Source of the DNA: Collinsella sp. An268
GTDB taxonomy: Bacteria > Actinomycetota > Coriobacteriia > Coriobacteriales > Coriobacteriaceae
Reading direction: 5' to 3'
Assembly: GCF_002159765.1 (NCBI RefSeq)
Contig: NZ_NFJH01000001.1
Span: 1 to 64,000, forward strand
DNA length: 64,000 nt
Shown one piece after another: positions 1 to 13,141 of the stretch. Numbering within the stretch: the first letter of the stretch is position 1; the number at the start of each line of letters is the position of its first letter. A program made the translations under genes and the position numbers. The notes beneath the pieces were generated by a model, which worked only from the letters and a program-made list of their open reading frames with translations, ran no database searches and had not been told where the DNA came from.

Positions 1-7
1 TGACGCG

Positions 8-33
8 GAAACGGCCCCTCCCGGGGCCGTTTC
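8..33. terminator. Perfect stem-loop at the window edge
   Basis: An 11-bp perfect stem (8-18 pairs with 23-33) with a 4-base loop. It probably ends transcription of a gene lying left of the window. There is only a weak T-run after it, so its efficiency is uncertain. Confidence 0.6.
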
Positions 34-64
34 AGTTCCAGATCGTTGTTTTCGCCCGCTGAGC

Positions 65-1567
65 TGGGCCTATGCCGGAATCTCTCCCACAGAAACCACC
101 GAAGAGCCATACTTCTTTCTCTCACGTCCGCGGCGCTTTGGTAAGACGCTGCTCATCTCTACCATGCAGGATTTCTTTGAGGGCAAGCGGGAGCTGTTCG
201 ATGGGCTTGCGGCTGGCGAGCTCGAGACGGAATGGGCTTCGAGCCCGGTTATCCGGCTGGATATGAGTATGGTGAAACCCGTCACGGTTGCAGGGTTGCG
301 TGAGCGCCTCGGTGATATCTTGAGCGCTCTCGAGGAGCGCTTCGCCGTTGGGGAACGTCGTGCGACCACGCTCGGCGGGCGGCTTTCGGCTCTTATCGAA
401 TGCGCGGCGGCGGGGTGCGAGGGGAGTGTGGTGGTCCTCGTGGACGAGTACGACGCCCCTCTGCTGAACGTCATCGACGATCCAGAAACGTTGGATGCCT
501 TTGGGGACGTTATGCCCGAGTTCTACGTTCCCCTCAAGGCGTGCGACGAGCGGCTGCGGTTCGTTTTTCTCACTGGCATCACCAAGTTCTCCCAGCTCTC
601 GATTTTCTCTGAGCTCAACAATCTGGTTAACATCTCGATGAATCCCGCGTACGCCGGCATATGCGGCATCACCGAAGATGAGCTCAACAACCAGCTTGCC
701 GATGATGTTGCGGGACTCGCTGCCACCCTAGGGGTGACTGCGAGCGATGCCTACGCCCTTCTCAAGGAGCATTACGACGGGTATCACTTCTGTGCTCAAT
801 CCCCCGACATCTACAACCCCTTCAGCTTGCTGAGCGCCTTCTTCAACGGGTCGGTCGGCTCCTTTTGGTTCGAGACGGGGACGCCGTCGTCCCTCATCAG
901 GCTTCTCGCTGCTAAAGGCTGGCAGATTGTCGACCTTGAGGAGCGCGAGGCGCTTGATACGGGCTTCGACGTTCCCACGGAGTCGATGGACACCCCTTTG
1001 TCCATGCTCTATCAGGCTGGTTATCTCACCATCAAATCGTACGACCCCGAAAGTACCGTCTATACGCTGGGGATTCCCAATCGCGAGGTGAGCCGCGGCC
1101 TCTCTGAGGGGCTGGTTCGGCTGGGCGGGCAGGGTGCGCTCGATGAGCACAGCACGTTTTTGATCGGGCTGGCTCGGAGTCTCCGTTCCGGGGACCTCGA
1201 CGGGGCGCTCGCGCGGCTTCGCGCATATCTGGCGGGCATCCCGTACCACCTTGGCAGCCGCGACGAGCGCGGGTTCCAGACCAAGTTCTACCTGATCCTC
1301 GATCTTCTGGGTATCCAGATCGAGACGGAGTTCAAGACGGCGACCGGCCGCGTGGACGCCGTGGTTCGCGCGCGGGGCAACGTGTATGTGTTCGAATTCA
1401 AGTACGTTAGGCCCGCTACCGAGGCGCTCGCCCAGATAGATCGAAAAGGGTACATGGTTCCCTTCTCTGCCGAGGAGGGGCGTCTTCTCAAAATCGGCGT
1501 GCGCTTCGATCCCGAGACCCAGACCGTGGGCGATTGGGTTATCCGCGAGGGTAGGACCGGTAACTAG
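65..1567 (+). pseudogene. 5'-truncated AAA-ATPase-like / PD-(D/E)XK nuclease-like protein
   Basis: Belongs to the family with an N-terminal AAA-ATPase-like domain (PF09820 type) and a C-terminal PDDEXK_9 nuclease-like domain, abundant in gut anaerobes and of unclear function. The first ATG in frame is at 164, but the frame is open upstream and there encodes the family hallmark SRPRRFGKT, the Walker A-like motif, at 122-148. That motif lies before any ATG, GTG or TTG in frame. The usual 30-50 residues preceding it are absent and a terminator sits at 8-33, so the 5' end looks deleted. A VLVDEYDAP Walker B-like motif is near 436-465. The C-terminus keeps the nuclease-like pattern (IETEF, RVDAVV, VFEFKYV). 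Translation from 164 would give 467 residues lacking the P-loop. A start upstream of an assembly or deletion error is the alternative. Confidence 0.7.
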
Positions 1568-1606
1568 CCCACTTGAGACTCATTGTGTTTAAGTGGTGCC
1601 ACGTTT

Positions 1607-1645
1607 GGCCCGCCCGGGCAGCGCTTGCTGTCCGGGCGGGCCCGT
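1607..1645 (+). terminator. Rho-independent-type terminator
   Basis: An 11-bp GC stem (1607-1617 with 1632-1642) with a 14-base loop, about 40 bases after the stop codon of the truncated ATPase gene. It is followed by only a short T-containing tail. Confidence 0.7.
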
Positions 1646-1816
1646 TATGTACCACTGCGGCATGTCTTCTGCGAAATCACTATGCGCGCGCCGTAATGCT
1701 ATACGCGCGATTTTATGTTCGAGCCGGCTAAGAAGCGTTACTGCATTCTTCAGTGACAATTCTCATAACATCACTTCCAATTATCACTAACGGTTCTGTG
1801 TGGATGTGAGTGATGT

Positions 1817-3282
1817 ATGAAAGACAAGTCTATCGGCGAGATCATGGACATGCTTCGCGCCCAAAGACGAGATTACGCTCAATGCGAGGTAAAGACTTGT
1901 GCTGGAGATCTTTCGAAGGATGTCTGGAAGACGGCAAGCGCCTTTGCCAACACCGACGGTGGCACACTGGTTTTTAGGTGTGAGTGAGAAAGACAGCTTT
2001 GCACTCGTGGCGGATTTTCAGATCGACAGGGTCTGCGACCGGCTTGTGCCCGGCATGGGCGATTGCGGTTCTCCCAGCGTTCTGACAAATCCTCCCGAGT
2101 GTCGTATCGATCGCGTGGCGTACGAGGGGGCACGGTGCTCGTTGTTCGCATTGAGGAGCTGCCGGCCGCACAGAAGCCCTGCTATATAACGGCTCGAGGG
2201 GCCCACGGGGCAGTTATCGGCGCATCGACGATAAAGATGTGAGGTTGTCGCCCAATGAGCTCTACGCAATCCAGTCCGCGATGCTTGTCGACCGTTCCGA
2301 TCGGGAGTCTGTTGAGGATGCGGAAGTTTCCGATCTTGACGGGGCGGTGTGCGAGGCGGCGTTTTCCCGCGCACTGCTTGTCGCGCCGCGTTCCCTGCGG
2401 GGCGCCGACGACGCTTCGGAGCGGTTGAGACGTCTGAACTTCACTGACTCACAAGGTCGAGTCATACGTGTGGGGCTGCTGGTGGCGGGAGTGTGTCCAC
2501 AGCAGTTCTTCCCCAAGCTCCACGTTGATGTCGCGGTGCATCCGGGGACCGTCAAGGGGTCGGCGGGCGCGCTGCGGTTCCGCGACCGGACCGTCTGCGA
2601 GGGGACGCTCGGCGAGATGATCGAGGACGCGGTGACGGCGATTGCAAAGAACCTACGGCGCCGGTCGGTGGTGCGAGGCATCGGCAGGATCGATGAGCTG
2701 GAGATCCCCGAGGTCGTCCTACGCGAGATTGTGACCAACGCCCTGCTCCACCGCAGCTACAACGATCGCTTCGATCGGGAGGCGGTGACTGTCGACATCT
2801 TTGACGACCGTATTGAGGTCATCAATCCCGGCGGACTCTGGGGGAAATCGCGTGCCGACCTCGCTGACGGCAGGTCGTGTTGCCGCAACGCTACCATCAT
2901 GAGGCTGATGTCTCTCGTTCCGTTGCCGAGCGCCGTGGGGTCGCCAGCCGAGGGCAATGGCACCGGCATTCCGCTCATGATAGCGGAGATGGCTGAGGGC
3001 GACCTCGAGCCGCCGGAGTTCTATCCCGCCATGGATCACTTCAAGGTAATCCTAAGGCGCCCTCAAGAAGATGGGGACGGAGGCGCGGTTGCGTCCAAGG
3101 GCGAGGCCCTCGTCGAGGCTGCGCTTCGGGAGGTTGGTCAGATGTCTGTCCGCGAGCTATCTGAGAGGTGCGGCATGTCCGTCAGCCAGACGCGCCGCCG
3201 CGTGAACAGCCTTATCGCCTGCAGGGTTGTCGAGGCCACCGCGCCCGCGACGAGCGGGAACCGTGCGTACCGACTGGTGTGA
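1817..3282 (+). pseudogene. AlbA_2 / RecG-like ATP-binding transcriptional regulator, frameshifted
   Basis: The intact family has an N-terminal AlbA_2 (Schlafen-like) DNA-binding domain, a GHKL-like HATPase_c_4 region and a C-terminal winged helix. Reading starts at ATG 1817 (MKDKSIGEIM), runs through EVKTCAGDL and FANTDGGTL, and stops at about 1985. The homologous reading GVSEKDSFALV continues in another frame (from about 1976), then VLVVRIEELP in a third (from about 2130), then GSYRRIDDKDVRLSPNELY in a fourth segment (from about 2209) to the stop at 3282. The three shifts fall in a T run (1972-1976) and two G runs (2126-2130, 2207-2210). The rest is well preserved: EVVLREIVTNALLHRSY, an NPGGLWG loop and a terminal HTH near 3130-3240. 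It is a recent pseudogene, unless the assembly has homopolymer errors. A product from the GTG at 2239 (347 aa) would lack AlbA_2. Confidence 0.75.
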
Positions 3283-3503
3283 CGAACGGCTCGGCAATGC
3301 CGTTTCTAGCATGGCGGTATCTTTCCAATCCCGGGAAGACTATCGATTGCCCGTCGCCCCGAACAGTGTCTATGCATCATGGATGCGCTAATCCCGTCAA
3401 TGACTCCTTTTTGCATGTTGGGGTGCCGGGGCACACATCTTGCACATCCATATGCTTTCTGCCACAACCAACAATTTGCTACGAATATGTGCTCGATGTT
3501 TAT

Positions 3504-3509
3504 TATAAT
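3504..3509 (+). promoter_or_regulatory. Probable -10 box for the TcmP cassette
   Basis: A perfect TATAAT in an AT-rich island (about 3470-3530), 34 bases before the start codon at 3543. No good -35 hexamer is seen at 16-18 bp; TTGCTA at 3476 is 22 bp away. Confidence 0.55.
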
Positions 3510-3542
3510 AGAACAAAAGTTCGTACATGAGGGAGGTTTACG

Positions 3543-4475
3543 ATGTGTGCGAGGCGAATGGCAAAAGAGTCGAATACATTCGGTGGTGAGTGGAGCATCA
3601 AAAAGCTGGATTGCGTAGAGAGCTATCTCCGCTCGTATCTCAAGGTGATGATGAAGAAGAATTGGGCGGAGCTGTACTACATTGATGCATTTTCGGGCAA
3701 CGGAATCCAGCGATTCGAAGGGACGTACGGCGAGGATCAATTTTCAATTGCATTTGAAGATGAGCTGATAGGGAAGTTCGTCGAGGGTTCATCGATGCGC
3801 GCGTTGAAGGTTTCGGACGAGAGTGAACGTTCTGGAGAGCGAGGGTTCAAACATTTCTGCTTTCTTGAGTTAAGCGGTGATAAGTTGAGCGAGCTTAGAA
3901 GTCGTATAGAGGACTCGTATCCTCATATGTTGGCTAGATGCAAGTTTATACAGGGCGACGTTAACGATACGCTGCCAGAGCTCGTCAGATCTATTCCCTG
4001 GAAAGAGCAACGAGGGGTTATGTTTATAGACCCATGGGCAACGCAGCTGAGCTGGAGTAGCGTTGAGTCGCTCAGGGGCGCTCGTTGCGACATCTGGATG
4101 CTCTTCCCCTTAGGGGCAATTATCCGAATGCTTCCTGGAGATCATCTACCTCCTCGCGAATTTGAGGGTGCCTTGACGCGCATTTTCGGTGACGACGGCT
4201 GGAAGGATTTATACCGTCACGAGAGGGGAGTTCAGCTGTCGCTTTTTGACGAAGAGGGTCAGCAAGTTTCCCGTCAGAGAGGGACCAAAGAGTTGATTGA
4301 TTACACTACAGACCGTTTGCGAACAGTGTCCCAATGCGTTTGCGGCCCCGCTGAACTTAGGACGTCGACAAACGCCCCGCTGTTCGCGTTATACTCGATG
4401 TTGCCAGCAGGCTCTCAAGAGGCAATTCGGCCTTTTAAAGCTATTTCAAATCACCTGCTTAAGTCAATTGCTTGA
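3543..4475 (+). CDS. tcmP: Three-Cys-motif partner protein, TcmP type
   Basis: 310 residues resembling the TcmP family (TIGR04474 type, as I recall it), which is typically encoded beside a protein with a three-cysteine motif. What is visible looks like a class I methyltransferase-type Rossmann fold: YIDAFSGNG at about 47-54 (motif I-like), FLEL at 107-110, a GDVND acidic turn at about 138-142, and FIDPWA at 161-166 (motif IV-like DP-aromatic). No target-recognition domain is evident. The start at 3543 has GGGAGG at 3531-3536, 6 bases upstream; ATG 3558 (MAKESN) is an alternative that matches the usual family N-terminus. Base composition is clearly more AT-rich than the neighbours, suggesting transfer. 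The next gene's ribosome site overlaps this stop codon, so the two are probably co-translated. The biochemical function is unknown. Confidence 0.8.
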   Translation: MCARRMAKESNTFGGEWSIKKLDCVESYLRSYLKVMMKKNWAELYYIDAFSGNGIQRFEGTYGEDQFSIAFEDELIGKFVEGSSMRALKVSDESERSGERGFKHFCFLELSGDKLSELRSRIEDSYPHMLARCKFIQGDVNDTLPELVRSIPWKEQRGVMFIDPWATQLSWSSVESLRGARCDIWMLFPLGAIIRMLPGDHLPPREFEGALTRIFGDDGWKDLYRHERGVQLSLFDEEGQQVSRQRGTKELIDYTTDRLRTVSQCVCGPAELRTSTNAPLFALYSMLPAGSQEAIRPFKAISNHLLKSIA

Positions 4476-4485
4476 GGTGGTCAAG

Positions 4486-5289
4486 ATGAAGACGATCGTG
4501 CGGAAATCCATGCTGTATAAGACGGGGGTCGAGTATGGTGACTACACGATGAACCACGTGCAGGGATGTTCGCACGGCTGCACCTACCCCTGCTACGCTA
4601 TGCTCATGGCAAAAAGGTTCGGACGCGCTTCTTCCTATGAGGACTGGTGCGAACCGCGTCTCGTCTCAAACACCTTGGAGCTGTTGGACCGCGAGATCCC
4701 CCGTCTGAAACCTAAGATTCGCACCGTGCACCTGTGCTTTACAACGGACCCGTTTATGTACGGCTATGATGAGGTGTCCGCGATGAGTGTCGAGGCAATG
4801 CGGAAGCTTAATGCGGCTCACATCCCCGTGACTGCGCTGAGCAAAGGCCTACTTCCTTTGGAACTTGCAGAGCTATCTCATGACAACTCGTACGGAATCA
4901 CCTTGATTTCGCTGGACGAGTCGTATCGTGAGAAGGCGGAGCCCGGCGCCGCGCCTTATCGGGAGCGCATCGCTGCGCTGAAGGAGCTTCATGACAAGGG
5001 GTGCAATACCTGGGTGAGTATCGAGCCGTATCCGTCTCCCAATCTTATCGAGCAAGACCTTCATGAAATCTTGGAGGAGGTCTCTTTCGCGAATCGCATC
5101 ATATTCGGCCGCACCAATTACAACAGGGTGGTTTCCTCTTACCCCAACGTTAAGGTGTGGTACGACCGGTTGGCGCATGAGGTGATTTCATTTTGCGACG
5201 CGAACGGTATTGCCTGTCACATAAAGAAGGGGACCCTGCAGCTGGTGGATGATGCTCCAAGCGCGCCAATCGCGCCGTCTGGCGAATAA
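4486..5289 (+). CDS. Radical-SAM-like three-cysteine-motif protein (TcmP partner)
   Basis: 267 residues starting at ATG 4486, preceded by GAGGTGG (4474-4480) that overlaps the tcmP stop. The N-terminal motif is C28-SHG-C32-TYP-C36-YA. It resembles the 4Fe-4S site of radical SAM enzymes of the spore photoproduct lyase-like type (CX3CX2C), but with one extra residue between the second and third cysteines (CX3CX3C). The following segments fit a TIM barrel: IRTVHLCFTTDPFMYG, ALSKG, ITLISLDE, WVSIEPYPSPNL and FGRTNYN. This matches the idea of Gp37/Gp68-like three-Cys proteins that occur with TcmP. Substrate and reaction are unknown; a nucleic acid role is only a guess. Family-level confidence is good, function low. 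Confidence 0.75.
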   Translation: MKTIVRKSMLYKTGVEYGDYTMNHVQGCSHGCTYPCYAMLMAKRFGRASSYEDWCEPRLVSNTLELLDREIPRLKPKIRTVHLCFTTDPFMYGYDEVSAMSVEAMRKLNAAHIPVTALSKGLLPLELAELSHDNSYGITLISLDESYREKAEPGAAPYRERIAALKELHDKGCNTWVSIEPYPSPNLIEQDLHEILEEVSFANRIIFGRTNYNRVVSSYPNVKVWYDRLAHEVISFCDANGIACHIKKGTLQLVDDAPSAPIAPSGE

Positions 5290-5293
5290 CCCC

Positions 5294-5323
5294 TTGACAG
5301 GGCGCGGAAGACCCTCGTACACT
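5294..5323 (+). promoter_or_regulatory. Promoter of the antiterminator-PTS operon
   Basis: A consensus -35 TTGACA (5294-5299) and -10 TACACT (5318-5323) separated by 18 bp. It is followed at 5331-5344 by a perfect 14-bp palindrome (TATTCAATTGAATA) that would lie at or just after +1 and could be an operator. Confidence 0.75.
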
Positions 5324-5349
5324 CACGGTGTATTCAATTGAATAGCAAC

Positions 5350-5380
5350 GGGATTTGTTACGGAATCGCCGGCATGACCC
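5350..5380 (+). promoter_or_regulatory. Ribonucleic antiterminator (RAT) site
   Basis: The leader contains GGGATTTGTTACGG followed by a partly complementary 3' half ending in GGCATGACCC. This closely resembles the LicT/BglG RAT hairpin, and its 3' end overlaps the 5' arm of the terminator at 5377. The two structures are mutually exclusive, as expected for antitermination by the protein encoded next. Confidence 0.75.
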
Positions 5381-5410
5381 AGGTACCACGCGAGTGGGCC
5401 TGGGTTTTTT
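5377..5410 (+). terminator. Conditional leader terminator
   Basis: The stem ACCCAGG/CCTGGGT, with an inner CCAC/GTGG pairing, is followed by six T residues (5405-5410). It lies between the promoter and the antiterminator gene and overlaps the RAT site, so it is likely the regulated attenuator of this PTS operon. Confidence 0.8.
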
Positions 5411-5453
5411 CGTAACGGTCCGCAGGAGAGGACAGATTGAAAGGAGGTGCGAC

Positions 5454-8906
<3,453 letters not shown>

Positions 8907-8961
8907 CGCTTACGGGCCCCGTTGGGTACCCCGTCCGCTAATATAGCCAGAAAAAGAGAAT

Positions 8962-8995
8962 GGGGGCGATGCCGCGTCGACGTGGCATCGCCCCC
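8962..8995. terminator. Bidirectional terminator between convergent units
   Basis: A perfect 12-bp stem (8962-8973 with 8984-8995) lies between the PTS operon and the convergent AraC gene. Read on the minus strand it is followed by CATTCTCTTTTT, so it serves that direction best. Confidence 0.8.
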
Positions 8996-9065
8996 AAGTC
9001 GTACAGGAAGTGCTTCTCGGACCGTCAAGCAACCAGTTTTGCCATGAGGCCGCGGTGGGTTTTCA

Positions 9066-10097
9066 TCAAACCGCGTTCGCCCGCGCATGTCTGCTCGCTT
9101 GTGAACCTGCGAGCGCTTTGCGGTAGGCACGCGGGGTCATCTGGTAGAACAGTTCGAATTTCCGGTAGAAGAAGCTCATGTTGGTGATGCCTACCTTGTG
9201 TGCAATCGCCTCGATGGAGCGCTCGGTGTTGAGCAGAAGCCAGGCGGCCTCGGACATCTGCTGGCCCAGCCTGATTTGCGAGAACGTTTCGCCCGTCTTG
9301 GCTTTGAGCAGATTGCCGAGGTAGTTGGTGCTGTAGCCAAACTCGCGTGCCACCGATCCCAGCGTACATGTTTTGTAGTTGTGCTCGATGTGGTCGAGGA
9401 TGCGCGCTGTCTTGTCGTCGATGTTGGAGACCGGGTCCTGCAGCTGCGCTTGGTAGTAGAGCGCGCGGATGAGCTCCATGAACACGAGCGTGGCATAGCT
9501 GCGCAACATGTCCTCGGTGTACACGTCGGGGAAGAGGTACTCATGGGCGAGAAGCCGGATGAGGTCGGGTAGGTTGCCGGTGTGCTCGTGGGTAACGATG
9601 ATGGCGTGGTCGCGCTGGCGCCGATGGCTGATGCTCTCGAAGAGAAACGTGGTGAGGATGCCGCCGCCGGGAAGGCTCGCGAGAAATACGGAGTCGAAGA
9701 ACTCCTGTAGAAACGTGATGGCGATGACGATGTCGCCCTCGCCCTTCTTCGAAGGGACGCTCCGCACCGCCTCGGTATCGAAGAGGACGGCATCGCCCTG
9801 GGTGAGCTCGAACTGCCTGCCGTCGACTACGTAGCGACATGAGCCGCTGTAGAGGTAGTTCAGCTCCATCGCCGTGTTGACATGGGGCGGGATGGTGGTA
9901 AAGCGCGTTTCCTTGATGAGGCCGATGGCGCTGCGCCGTACGGTGTTGCGCCAGTCGAAGACAAGGACGTCCTCGCCGTCGATGGTGACGCGCGGAGTGC
10001 GGTCGTACACGGGGCTCGGCTCGCCGGGATGCGCGAGGTGCCAAGCCTCACTGGCGGTATGGGCGCGGAGCCTGCGATCGAGTACGTCGTCTAGCAT
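9066..10097 (-). CDS. AraC/XylS-family transcriptional regulator
   Basis: 343 residues. The N-terminal part (about 20-180) is a cupin-like sensing domain (VLVFDWRNT, YLYSGSCRYVVDGRQFELTQGD). The C-terminal 235-335 is the double HTH of AraC proteins (SVAREFGYSTNYLGNLLKAKTG; IEAIAHKVGITNMSFFYRKF, then FYQMTPRAYR). It is divergent from the 6-phospho-beta-glycosidase/EIIBC unit starting at 10281, with 183 bp between them that is AT-rich and contains imperfect inverted repeats. It therefore likely controls that unit in response to its sugar. No signal peptide or membrane segment is seen; it acts in the cytosol. Confidence 0.92.
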   Translation of the reverse strand: MLDDVLDRRLRAHTASEAWHLAHPGEPSPVYDRTPRVTIDGEDVLVFDWRNTVRRSAIGLIKETRFTTIPPHVNTAMELNYLYSGSCRYVVDGRQFELTQGDAVLFDTEAVRSVPSKKGEGDIVIAITFLQEFFDSVFLASLPGGGILTTFLFESISHRRQRDHAIIVTHEHTGNLPDLIRLLAHEYLFPDVYTEDMLRSYATLVFMELIRALYYQAQLQDPVSNIDDKTARILDHIEHNYKTCTLGSVAREFGYSTNYLGNLLKAKTGETFSQIRLGQQMSEAAWLLLNTERSIEAIAHKVGITNMSFFYRKFELFYQMTPRAYRKALAGSQASRHARANAV

Positions 10098-10154
10098 GGC
10101 CGCTGCCCCCCTCGCCCTCCGTCATTGTGCATGGAACCTGTAAATATGTCATAG

Positions 10155-11747
<1,593 letters not shown>

Positions 11748-11797
11748 CCGCTCTCGTGCGACTGATGACGCAAGCTCTCTCATGAAAGGGGCAAGAC

Positions 11798-13141
11798 ATG
11801 AAAACCAACAAGCAGCTCGCCCAGGACATCTTGAAGGAGTTGGGTGGGGCGGAAAATGTCTCCCACGCGACGCATTGCATAACGCGCCTGCGCGTGAACC
11901 TCGTCGATGACAGCAAGGCGGATCTCGACGCGCTCAAAGTCATGGACGGCGCTATGGGCGCGCAGGTCAAAGACGGTCAGTGGCAGATCATTATCGGACC
12001 CAAGGTGAGCGACGTCTTTATGGAGTTCGAGCCGCTTCTGGGCGGCGGTAAGACGGGCGATGGCGGCGCTGGCACCAAGTTCAACTTCATGGACACCATC
12101 ACCGGCATCTTCTCGCCCATTATTCCCGCGCTGGTGGCAGGTGGTATCGTCAAGGGCGTACTTGCCATCGTGGCCGGTTTTGGCGTTGACACGAGCGCTG
12201 GCGATTGGGCGCTCTTCAACATGATCTCCGATATCCCGTTCTACTTCCTGCCGTTCCTGCTTGCGGTCTCCTCGGCGCGCAAGTTCCGCGTAAACGAGTT
12301 TCTGGCGGTATGCGTCGCCGGCTCACTGCTCTATCCGACGTTTACCGCCGCCGTCGAGTCGGGCGAGATCGCTTTTACACTCTTCGGTATCGCTGTTCCG
12401 CAGTTCAGTTACTCCAGTTCGGTCTTTCCGGTCATCTTTGGAGTGGCGGGCCTCTCGCTTGTGTACCATGCCATCGATCGCTTCGTGCCCGACCTCTTCA
12501 AGCTCGTGGTCGTGCCCGCGCTTTCGCTCATGATCGTCATCCCGCTCAACCTCATGCTGCTGGCACCCATCGGGGCCTGGTGCGGCATCGGCCTTGCGAA
12601 CGGCATCGTGTGGCTCTTCTCCACGCTCGGCCCCGTCGCCGGCTTCCTGCTTGGGTTCTTCATGCCGTTGATCGTGCTCTTCGGCATGCACCAGTCCACT
12701 TCGCCCATCCAAATCGCCAACATCGCCCAGATGGGCTACGACTATCTGCTGCCCGTCTCGTTCTGCCATAACCTGGCCGAGAGCGGCGCGTCCTTTGGGG
12801 CATCGCTGCGCATGAAGGATCCGGCTATGCGTTCTGCGGGCATCACCTGCGCGTTTTCCGCGTTCATGGGTATCTCCGAGCCGGCGCTCTTCACCGTTCA
12901 GGTACCCAACAAGACGCCGCTTATCGGCGCGATGGTGGGCTGCGGCGTCGGCGGTGCGCTCGCGCAGATTCTGGGCGTCAAGTGCTTTGGCTTCGTCATG
13001 CCCGGTATCACTTCGCTGCCCGTGTACATGGATCCCTCGGGTGCTATGTGGAACATCATCGCCATCCTCATCTGCCTGGTGGCATCGTTTGCCATCTCCG
13101 CGGGCGTGGCGTTTGCGTTCACTAAGCCCATAGAGCCGTAA
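11798..13141 (+). CDS. PTS beta-glucoside-type transporter EIIBC
   Basis: 447 residues: IIB (1-90) with the phosphocysteine C27 in HATHCITRLRV, then a IIC membrane domain (about 100-445) with roughly ten hydrophobic segments and motifs such as FGMHQS, MGISEPALF and GFVMPGI. No IIA domain is attached, so phosphate must come from a IIA encoded elsewhere. The start has AAAGGGGC at about 11784. It follows the phospho-beta-glycosidase gene in the same direction, so import/phosphorylation and hydrolysis are probably coupled. An N-terminal relationship with the EIIBC at 6307 is plain, but the two are clearly diverged, not a recent duplication. Confidence 0.92.
   Translation: MKTNKQLAQDILKELGGAENVSHATHCITRLRVNLVDDSKADLDALKVMDGAMGAQVKDGQWQIIIGPKVSDVFMEFEPLLGGGKTGDGGAGTKFNFMDTITGIFSPIIPALVAGGIVKGVLAIVAGFGVDTSAGDWALFNMISDIPFYFLPFLLAVSSARKFRVNEFLAVCVAGSLLYPTFTAAVESGEIAFTLFGIAVPQFSYSSSVFPVIFGVAGLSLVYHAIDRFVPDLFKLVVVPALSLMIVIPLNLMLLAPIGAWCGIGLANGIVWLFSTLGPVAGFLLGFFMPLIVLFGMHQSTSPIQIANIAQMGYDYLLPVSFCHNLAESGASFGASLRMKDPAMRSAGITCAFSAFMGISEPALFTVQVPNKTPLIGAMVGCGVGGALAQILGVKCFGFVMPGITSLPVYMDPSGAMWNIIAILICLVASFAISAGVAFAFTKPIEP

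Follow-up and report, generated by a model that had tools for sequence, protein, structure and literature searches.

The gene pair at positions 3543-5289 of the window (the whole 64-kb stretch of DNA analysed here) encodes TcmP, a methyltransferase-fold protein related to RlmJ, and a three-Cys partner (rSAM) that is homologous to the radical SAM proteins. The reading that we favour, and which we hold to be about evenly balanced between right and wrong, is that the locus is a two-enzyme nucleic-acid modification module, carried in a defence setting by an accessory cassette that moves horizontally. The anti-phage idea is already catalogued: PADLOC-DB v2 has TcmP as component A of PDC-M41 and PDC-M30. 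The present analysis adds a distinct CX3CX3C partner class, the relationship to RlmJ and the association with type III restriction operons.

Organization of the locus

The pair and the features on its 5' side are the following.

164..1567, + strand: flank outside the pair, 5'-truncated AAA-ATPase-like/PD-(D/E)XK gene (PF09820 and PF08011 matches)
2239..3282, + strand: flank outside the pair, gene for a 5'-truncated HATPase_c_4 and winged-HTH protein (Pfam and phrog_12156 matches)
3504..3509, + strand: TATAAT hexamer 5' of the pair (sequence; no -35 match)
3543..4475, + strand: tcmP, RlmJ-like class I methyltransferase-fold protein, 310 aa (TIGR04474, PDC-M41A, AlphaFold, RlmJ fold and profile matches)
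4486..5289, + strand: three-Cys partner, radical-SAM-fold protein of the CX3CX3C class, 267 aa (Pfam Radical_SAM, AlphaFold, fold match)

TcmP and its partner form a tight, low-GC two-gene unit, and its composition differs from that of the surroundings as originally claimed: the GC content of 3501-4500 is 0.494, the lowest 1-kb value of the 64 kb, against 0.57-0.67 in the nearby flanks. The mechanical start of the partner ORF is TTG 4297 and the conserved start is ATG 4486. The tcmP stop codon TGA (4473-4475) overlaps the Shine-Dalgarno sequence GAGGTGG of the partner, and thus the translation signals abut. To that extent the original prediction of overlapping signals stands, but the coding regions themselves do not overlap, being 10 nt apart. 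That prediction also gave the pair its own TATAAT. The hexamer is present; however, the promoter scan reported no site there and a -35 match is absent, so that from its letters we take it to be a hexamer match only. Both the promoter and the terminator scans gave results at chance level, and an Rfam search of window positions 1-12000 found no RNA.

The two upstream genes had been described as decayed, which is likely because both look 5'-truncated: the alignment of the first, which lies at the contig start, begins at position 52 of the PF09820 profile, and that of the second at position 157 of 485 in phrog_12156. The 3' side of the pair is occupied by a separate operon, whose first genes resemble in sequence a BglG-type antiterminator and a PTS transporter. 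The leader of this antiterminator gene (5294-5410) contains a promoter-like TTGACA-18-TACACT and a GC-rich hairpin with a T run. Among the ORFs of window positions 1-12000, no restriction-modification genes, including type III mod and res, were recognised.

TcmP is a distant relative of RlmJ

TcmP scores 142.5 bits (E 2e-41) against NCBIfam TIGR04474, above the curated cut-off of 53 bits, and is assigned as component A by the PADLOC model PDC-M41A (E 1e-60 over residues 9-307). Structures were predicted as single chains, with a pLDDT of 86.8 for TcmP. In fold comparisons, which included Foldseek, the best match of this model is RlmJ, with a Z score of 15.5. RlmJ is likewise the top family when the TcmP profile is searched against the PDB, at a sub-significant E of 0.14, and a profile-profile comparison with eight RlmJ sequences gives a probability of 95% and an E of 4e-8 over motifs I to IV. 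TcmP is thus a distant relative of RlmJ, the 23S rRNA m6A methyltransferase, and the methyltransferase-like motifs DAFSGNG and FIDPWA of the original prediction are present within a supported methyltransferase fold. The aligned elements are located as follows.

3684..3704, + strand: motif I DAFSGNG, TcmP residues 48-54, aligned with RlmJ D40-G46
3786..3791, + strand: TcmP G82-S83, aligned with RlmJ G99-S100
4026..4040, + strand: motif IV I-D-P-W-A, TcmP residues 162-166, with D163 aligned to the catalytic D164 of RlmJ

The residues D48, G54 and D163 are invariant in 89/89 TcmP sequences, and S/T83 and E/D109 are kept in all of them. These five positions align with RlmJ D40, G46, D164, S100 and E118, respectively; S100, E118 and D164 contact SAM in RlmJ, and D164 is catalytic (PMC3814359). 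Lys21 of TcmP is also invariant and lies in the first helix like RlmJ K18, in a low-confidence alignment that is one residue off; it may be the counterpart of the catalytic Lys18 (motif X helix). Motif IV differs from the DPP(Y/F) of RlmJ: nearly all 89 sequences have Y, F or W immediately after DP, and the second Pro of DPPY is missing. Moreover, neither the N-terminal substrate-binding tail of RlmJ nor its W195 is recognisable in TcmP. Because of these three differences, TcmP may be inactive or may act on something else.

The partner is a radical SAM homologue with a CX3CX3C motif

With 46.7 bits (E 5e-12) against Pfam Radical_SAM, for a gathering score of 29.5, the three-Cys partner is a genuine radical-SAM homologue, and the spacing C28-x3-C32-x3-C36 given in the original prediction is correct.

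4567..4593, + strand: C28-SHG-C32-TYP-C36, predicted [4Fe-4S] ligands, invariant in 51/51

The canonical motif is CX3CX2C, whereas the partner has CX3CX3C in all 51 sequences; radical SAM chemistry is also supported by other three-Cys motifs (PMC3742179). The AlphaFold model of the partner has a pLDDT of 91.3, and its best fold match is spore photoproduct lyase (SPL; Z 18.9, the next family reaching 15.6). Weaker matches include viperin (Z 15.0), RlmN, SuiB and SkfB. In sequence comparisons, the SPL-family profile is matched with a probability of 60% and an E of 9e-5, the matches to the PA0069 and Rv2578c families are below cut-off, and PDB sequence searches with the partner and with its profile turned up no convincing relative. 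In the alignment with SPL, Tyr34 and Tyr37 fall at Tyr97 and Tyr99. The H-donor Cys141 of SPL aligns (TTD to TSD) with the invariant Phe85 of the partner, next to the near-invariant Cys84, which is why we would not class the partner as a spore photoproduct lyase.

TcmP is paired with three classes of radical SAM-like proteins

A scan based on the rSAM gave 80 genome loci, with 63-77% identity to the window among the matches listed. Adding the window and two same-family loci makes 83 loci, of which 79 have a gene of 100 aa or more upstream; one TcmP similarity cluster takes in 76 of these 79 genes. The gaps between TcmP and rSAM genes are typically -16 to +20 nt. In 16 genome or viral loci, a single rSAM follows two TcmPs in tandem, a long one (∼375-410 aa) and a short one (∼290-310 aa). 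A few loci have an rSAM but lack an intact TcmP. In L042 (6018-6992) and L014 (4435-5669), TcmP is split into two ORFs with an intact rSAM on its 3' side, through decay or sequencing error, and in L069 (3547-9547) an orphan CX3CX3C rSAM stands without TcmP amid phage-like genes.

An independent sample of 57 loci was found through TcmP only, and 47 of them contain a recognisable three-Cys partner; the conserved pairing put forward in the original prediction therefore holds. In this sample TcmP pairs with three radical-SAM-like classes, namely CX6CX2C (DUF5131-like), which is the commonest (33 loci), CX3CX3C (13 loci, one of which duplicates another) and the rare CX3CX2C (1 locus). The partner of the window thus belongs to a distinct minority class. 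The ten loci in which the partner is unrecognised are mostly fragments or contig edges. Canonical CX3CX2C partners adjoin TcmP on a Nostoc plasmid (L103:7823-9885) and on a Haladaptatus plasmid (L107:8905-11244). Phages themselves may use the pair: Synechococcus phage Ssp-JY39 carries a TcmP with a convergent CX6CX2C partner (L105:2680-4298), both annotated as hypothetical.

The two proteins differ in conservation. Mean column identity in the rSAM-found loci is 70% for the rSAM and 25% for TcmP, and median pairwise identity over 89 loci is 68.5% and 19.2%, all four values being biased by the selection of these loci through the rSAM. The difference persists, though smaller, in loci found through TcmP, where the medians for 11 sequences including the window are 56% and 20%. 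Part of it stems from exchanges between long and short TcmPs next to similar rSAMs. We infer that the asymmetry reflects a common radical chemistry combined with a variable choice of target.

Defence genes surround the relatives of the pair

The original prediction called for a survey of the neighbours of homologues, and these are strongly enriched in restriction and defence genes. Counting PADLOC models at E≤1e-10, 110 neighbours of rSAM-found loci (de-duplicated proteins) matched 283 families, foremost among them those of type I, IIG and III restriction-modification, and 113 neighbours of TcmP-found loci matched 286, including type I HsdR, HsdM and HsdS, against 2 families for 73 control proteins from random loci of 40 genomes carrying the rSAM cassette; the fold difference is not to be taken literally because many models match one protein. 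A same-strand type III mod gene begins 1-82 nt 3' of the rSAM in 16 of the 80 genome loci; in three further loci the called mod ORF, the start codon of which is uncertain, overlaps the rSAM by 41-47 nt. The res gene follows mod in most of the type III-linked cassettes. In L026 (4947-12828), a long TcmP, a short TcmP, the rSAM, mod and res form a single run with gaps of ∼5-30 nt, and similar five-gene runs are found at L028, L033, L041, L046 and L051.

Other neighbours vary. The Nostoc plasmid pair adjoins the BREX genes pglZ and brxL and a BrxA-family gene, the pair of the archaeon Haladaptatus adjoins DUF499 and DUF1156 genes, and a Leisingera pair is adjoined by Abi-family genes. In S. meliloti, according to the context given in the paper alone, a TcmP gene and hna are placed together in a putative transcription unit (PMC12445080). 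Phage resistance was restored there by hna alone, hence TcmP is not required (PMC12445080).

PDCs are phage defence candidates from 'guilt by embedding' (PMC10855318, PMC12988326). In one survey of 100 P. aeruginosa strains, 32 had PDC-M30, and 68.8% of these 32 were phage-resistant, a correlation only (PMC10855318). The partner matches the B models weakly, over its first 50-80 residues (PDC-M41B, E 1e-5, 23 bits over 77 residues; PDC-M30B, E 2e-4). Both B models seem to stand for the DUF5131 CX6CX2C class, and the CX3CX3C variant may therefore be missed by detection. Moreover, the libraries searched contain no dedicated model of the CX3CX3C class, so surveys may be missing the partner. In the open-access literature searched, we found no paper naming PDC-M41, only passing mentions and no biochemistry of TcmP, and a single phage paper on DUF5131/Gp37Gp68.

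The cassette is accessory and patchily present

Among 67 same-family genomes, 3 have a TcmP above the family cut-off; the figures are 38 of 396 genomes for the phylum of the window and 23 of 299 for the phylum of G123. Genes for TcmP, counted as defence candidates, thus occur in ∼8-10% of the sampled genomes of the two phyla. Two close relatives agree with the proposal that the pair occupies a variable slot. In G054, of the same genus (G054:C13, L004/L192), the rSAM is 78% identical and TcmP has no match. In the sister species G050 (G050:C90, L183), the adjoining region is 97% identical and only the last ∼70 nt of the rSAM are left.

5217..5289, + strand: 3' end of the rSAM kept as a scar in sister genome G050; homology begins at 5217

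Judged from their sequences, the genes beyond the G050 junction would be of polysaccharide type. Read most simply, the ancestor of the two species already had the cassette at this site, and one of them has since lost it or had it replaced. The cassette is accessory, patchily present and mobile-looking.

A proposed nucleic-acid modification module and its alternatives

The idea of nucleic-acid modification, raised in the original prediction, is upheld as the best reading, and it gains support from the modelled fold matches to RlmJ and SPL. Also in favour of the module as a whole are the conserved SAM-site and catalytic-type positions of TcmP, the defence genes around relatives, their operon-like linkage to type III restriction genes, the stronger conservation of the rSAM and the patchy presence. 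TcmP would be a diverged RlmJ-like, AdoMet-dependent methyltransferase recognising a nucleic-acid target, probably at adenine, and the partner an SPL-like radical SAM enzyme with a predicted CX3CX3C [4Fe-4S] site, probably acting on the target of TcmP or on its product. The rSAM would provide the common chemistry, and the varied TcmPs, sometimes two in tandem, the choice of target, a division that would account for the much stronger conservation of the rSAM. We infer that the pair is catalytic and that its substrate is a nucleic acid, and an anti-phage effect is plausible. Several observations speak against this reading: the substrate of RlmJ itself is rRNA, positions 1-12000 of the window are without restriction-modification genes, G054 and a few other loci keep an rSAM without an intact TcmP, and hna works without its TcmP neighbour (PMC12445080).

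If the substrate of RlmJ, the closest characterised homologue of TcmP, is taken as a guide, the pair would modify tRNA, rRNA or mRNA and alter translation during infection or stress. RlmN, among the fold matches of the rSAM, adds to RlmJ a further RNA-modifying precedent, but the operon-like linkage to DNA restriction genes and a patchy presence unlike that of a housekeeping modification make an RNA-directed system rather unlikely. The degenerate motif IV and the fast divergence of TcmP beside a conserved rSAM would also suit a catalytically dead recognition or sensor subunit, with the rSAM as an effector that produces a small antiviral compound or damages nucleic acid, like viperin or an abortive-infection effector. 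We consider this unlikely: the invariance of key SAM-site positions in 89 TcmPs argues for retained cofactor binding, and viperin, although among the fold matches, is clearly surpassed by SPL (Z 15.0 against 18.9).

The SPL match and the alignment of Tyr34/Tyr37 with Tyr97/Tyr99 could instead indicate DNA repair, the rSAM being a direct-reversal lyase for which TcmP helps to find lesions. The H-donor Cys141 is, however, replaced in the alignment by the invariant Phe85, though with Cys84 adjacent, and repair leaves the defence neighbourhood unexplained; we regard it as highly improbable. RiPP clusters contain pairs of radical SAM enzymes and methyltransferases, and SuiB and SkfB are among the fold matches of the rSAM, which together would favour a peptide maturation pair. 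With only 267 aa, the rSAM has no room for a SPASM-type extension, and since the two genes usually abut or overlap slightly, the gap between them, which was the region inspected, could not hold a precursor; this role seems barely credible.

Returning to the modification module, a specific form of it, which we consider very unlikely, is a two-step base hypermodification. TcmP would methylate adenine at chosen sites and the radical enzyme would elaborate the mark. The outcome would be an immune modification of combinatorial type: a single radical chemistry would be shared by several methyltransferases that can replace one another, and would act together with a type III restriction enzyme. The RlmJ and SPL relationships point to concrete residues, D163 in TcmP and C28/C32/C36 in the rSAM, and the type III operons are natural test constructs because they couple the TcmP-rSAM module to an enzyme of known activity.

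Comparison with known systems

TcmP resembles RlmJ (23S rRNA A2030 N6-methyltransferase, PF04378) in its fold, in motifs I to IV, in the GS of the SAM site and in a catalytic-type Asp. It differs by DP[Y/F/W] instead of DPPY, by another N-terminus and by having a radical SAM partner, and no ribosomal role is implied. The likeness of the partner to spore photoproduct lyase and COG1533 radical SAM proteins consists of the best fold match and the match to the SPL-family profile; the partner is shorter, has CX3CX3C rather than CX3CX2C and has no Cys at the H-donor position. Type III restriction-modification genes (mod/res) abut the cassette in relatives, with gaps of 1-82 nt, and none lies beside the pair of the window. 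Among the phage defence candidates, the window TcmP is strongly PDC-M41A, and the longer TcmPs of relatives match PDC-M30A.
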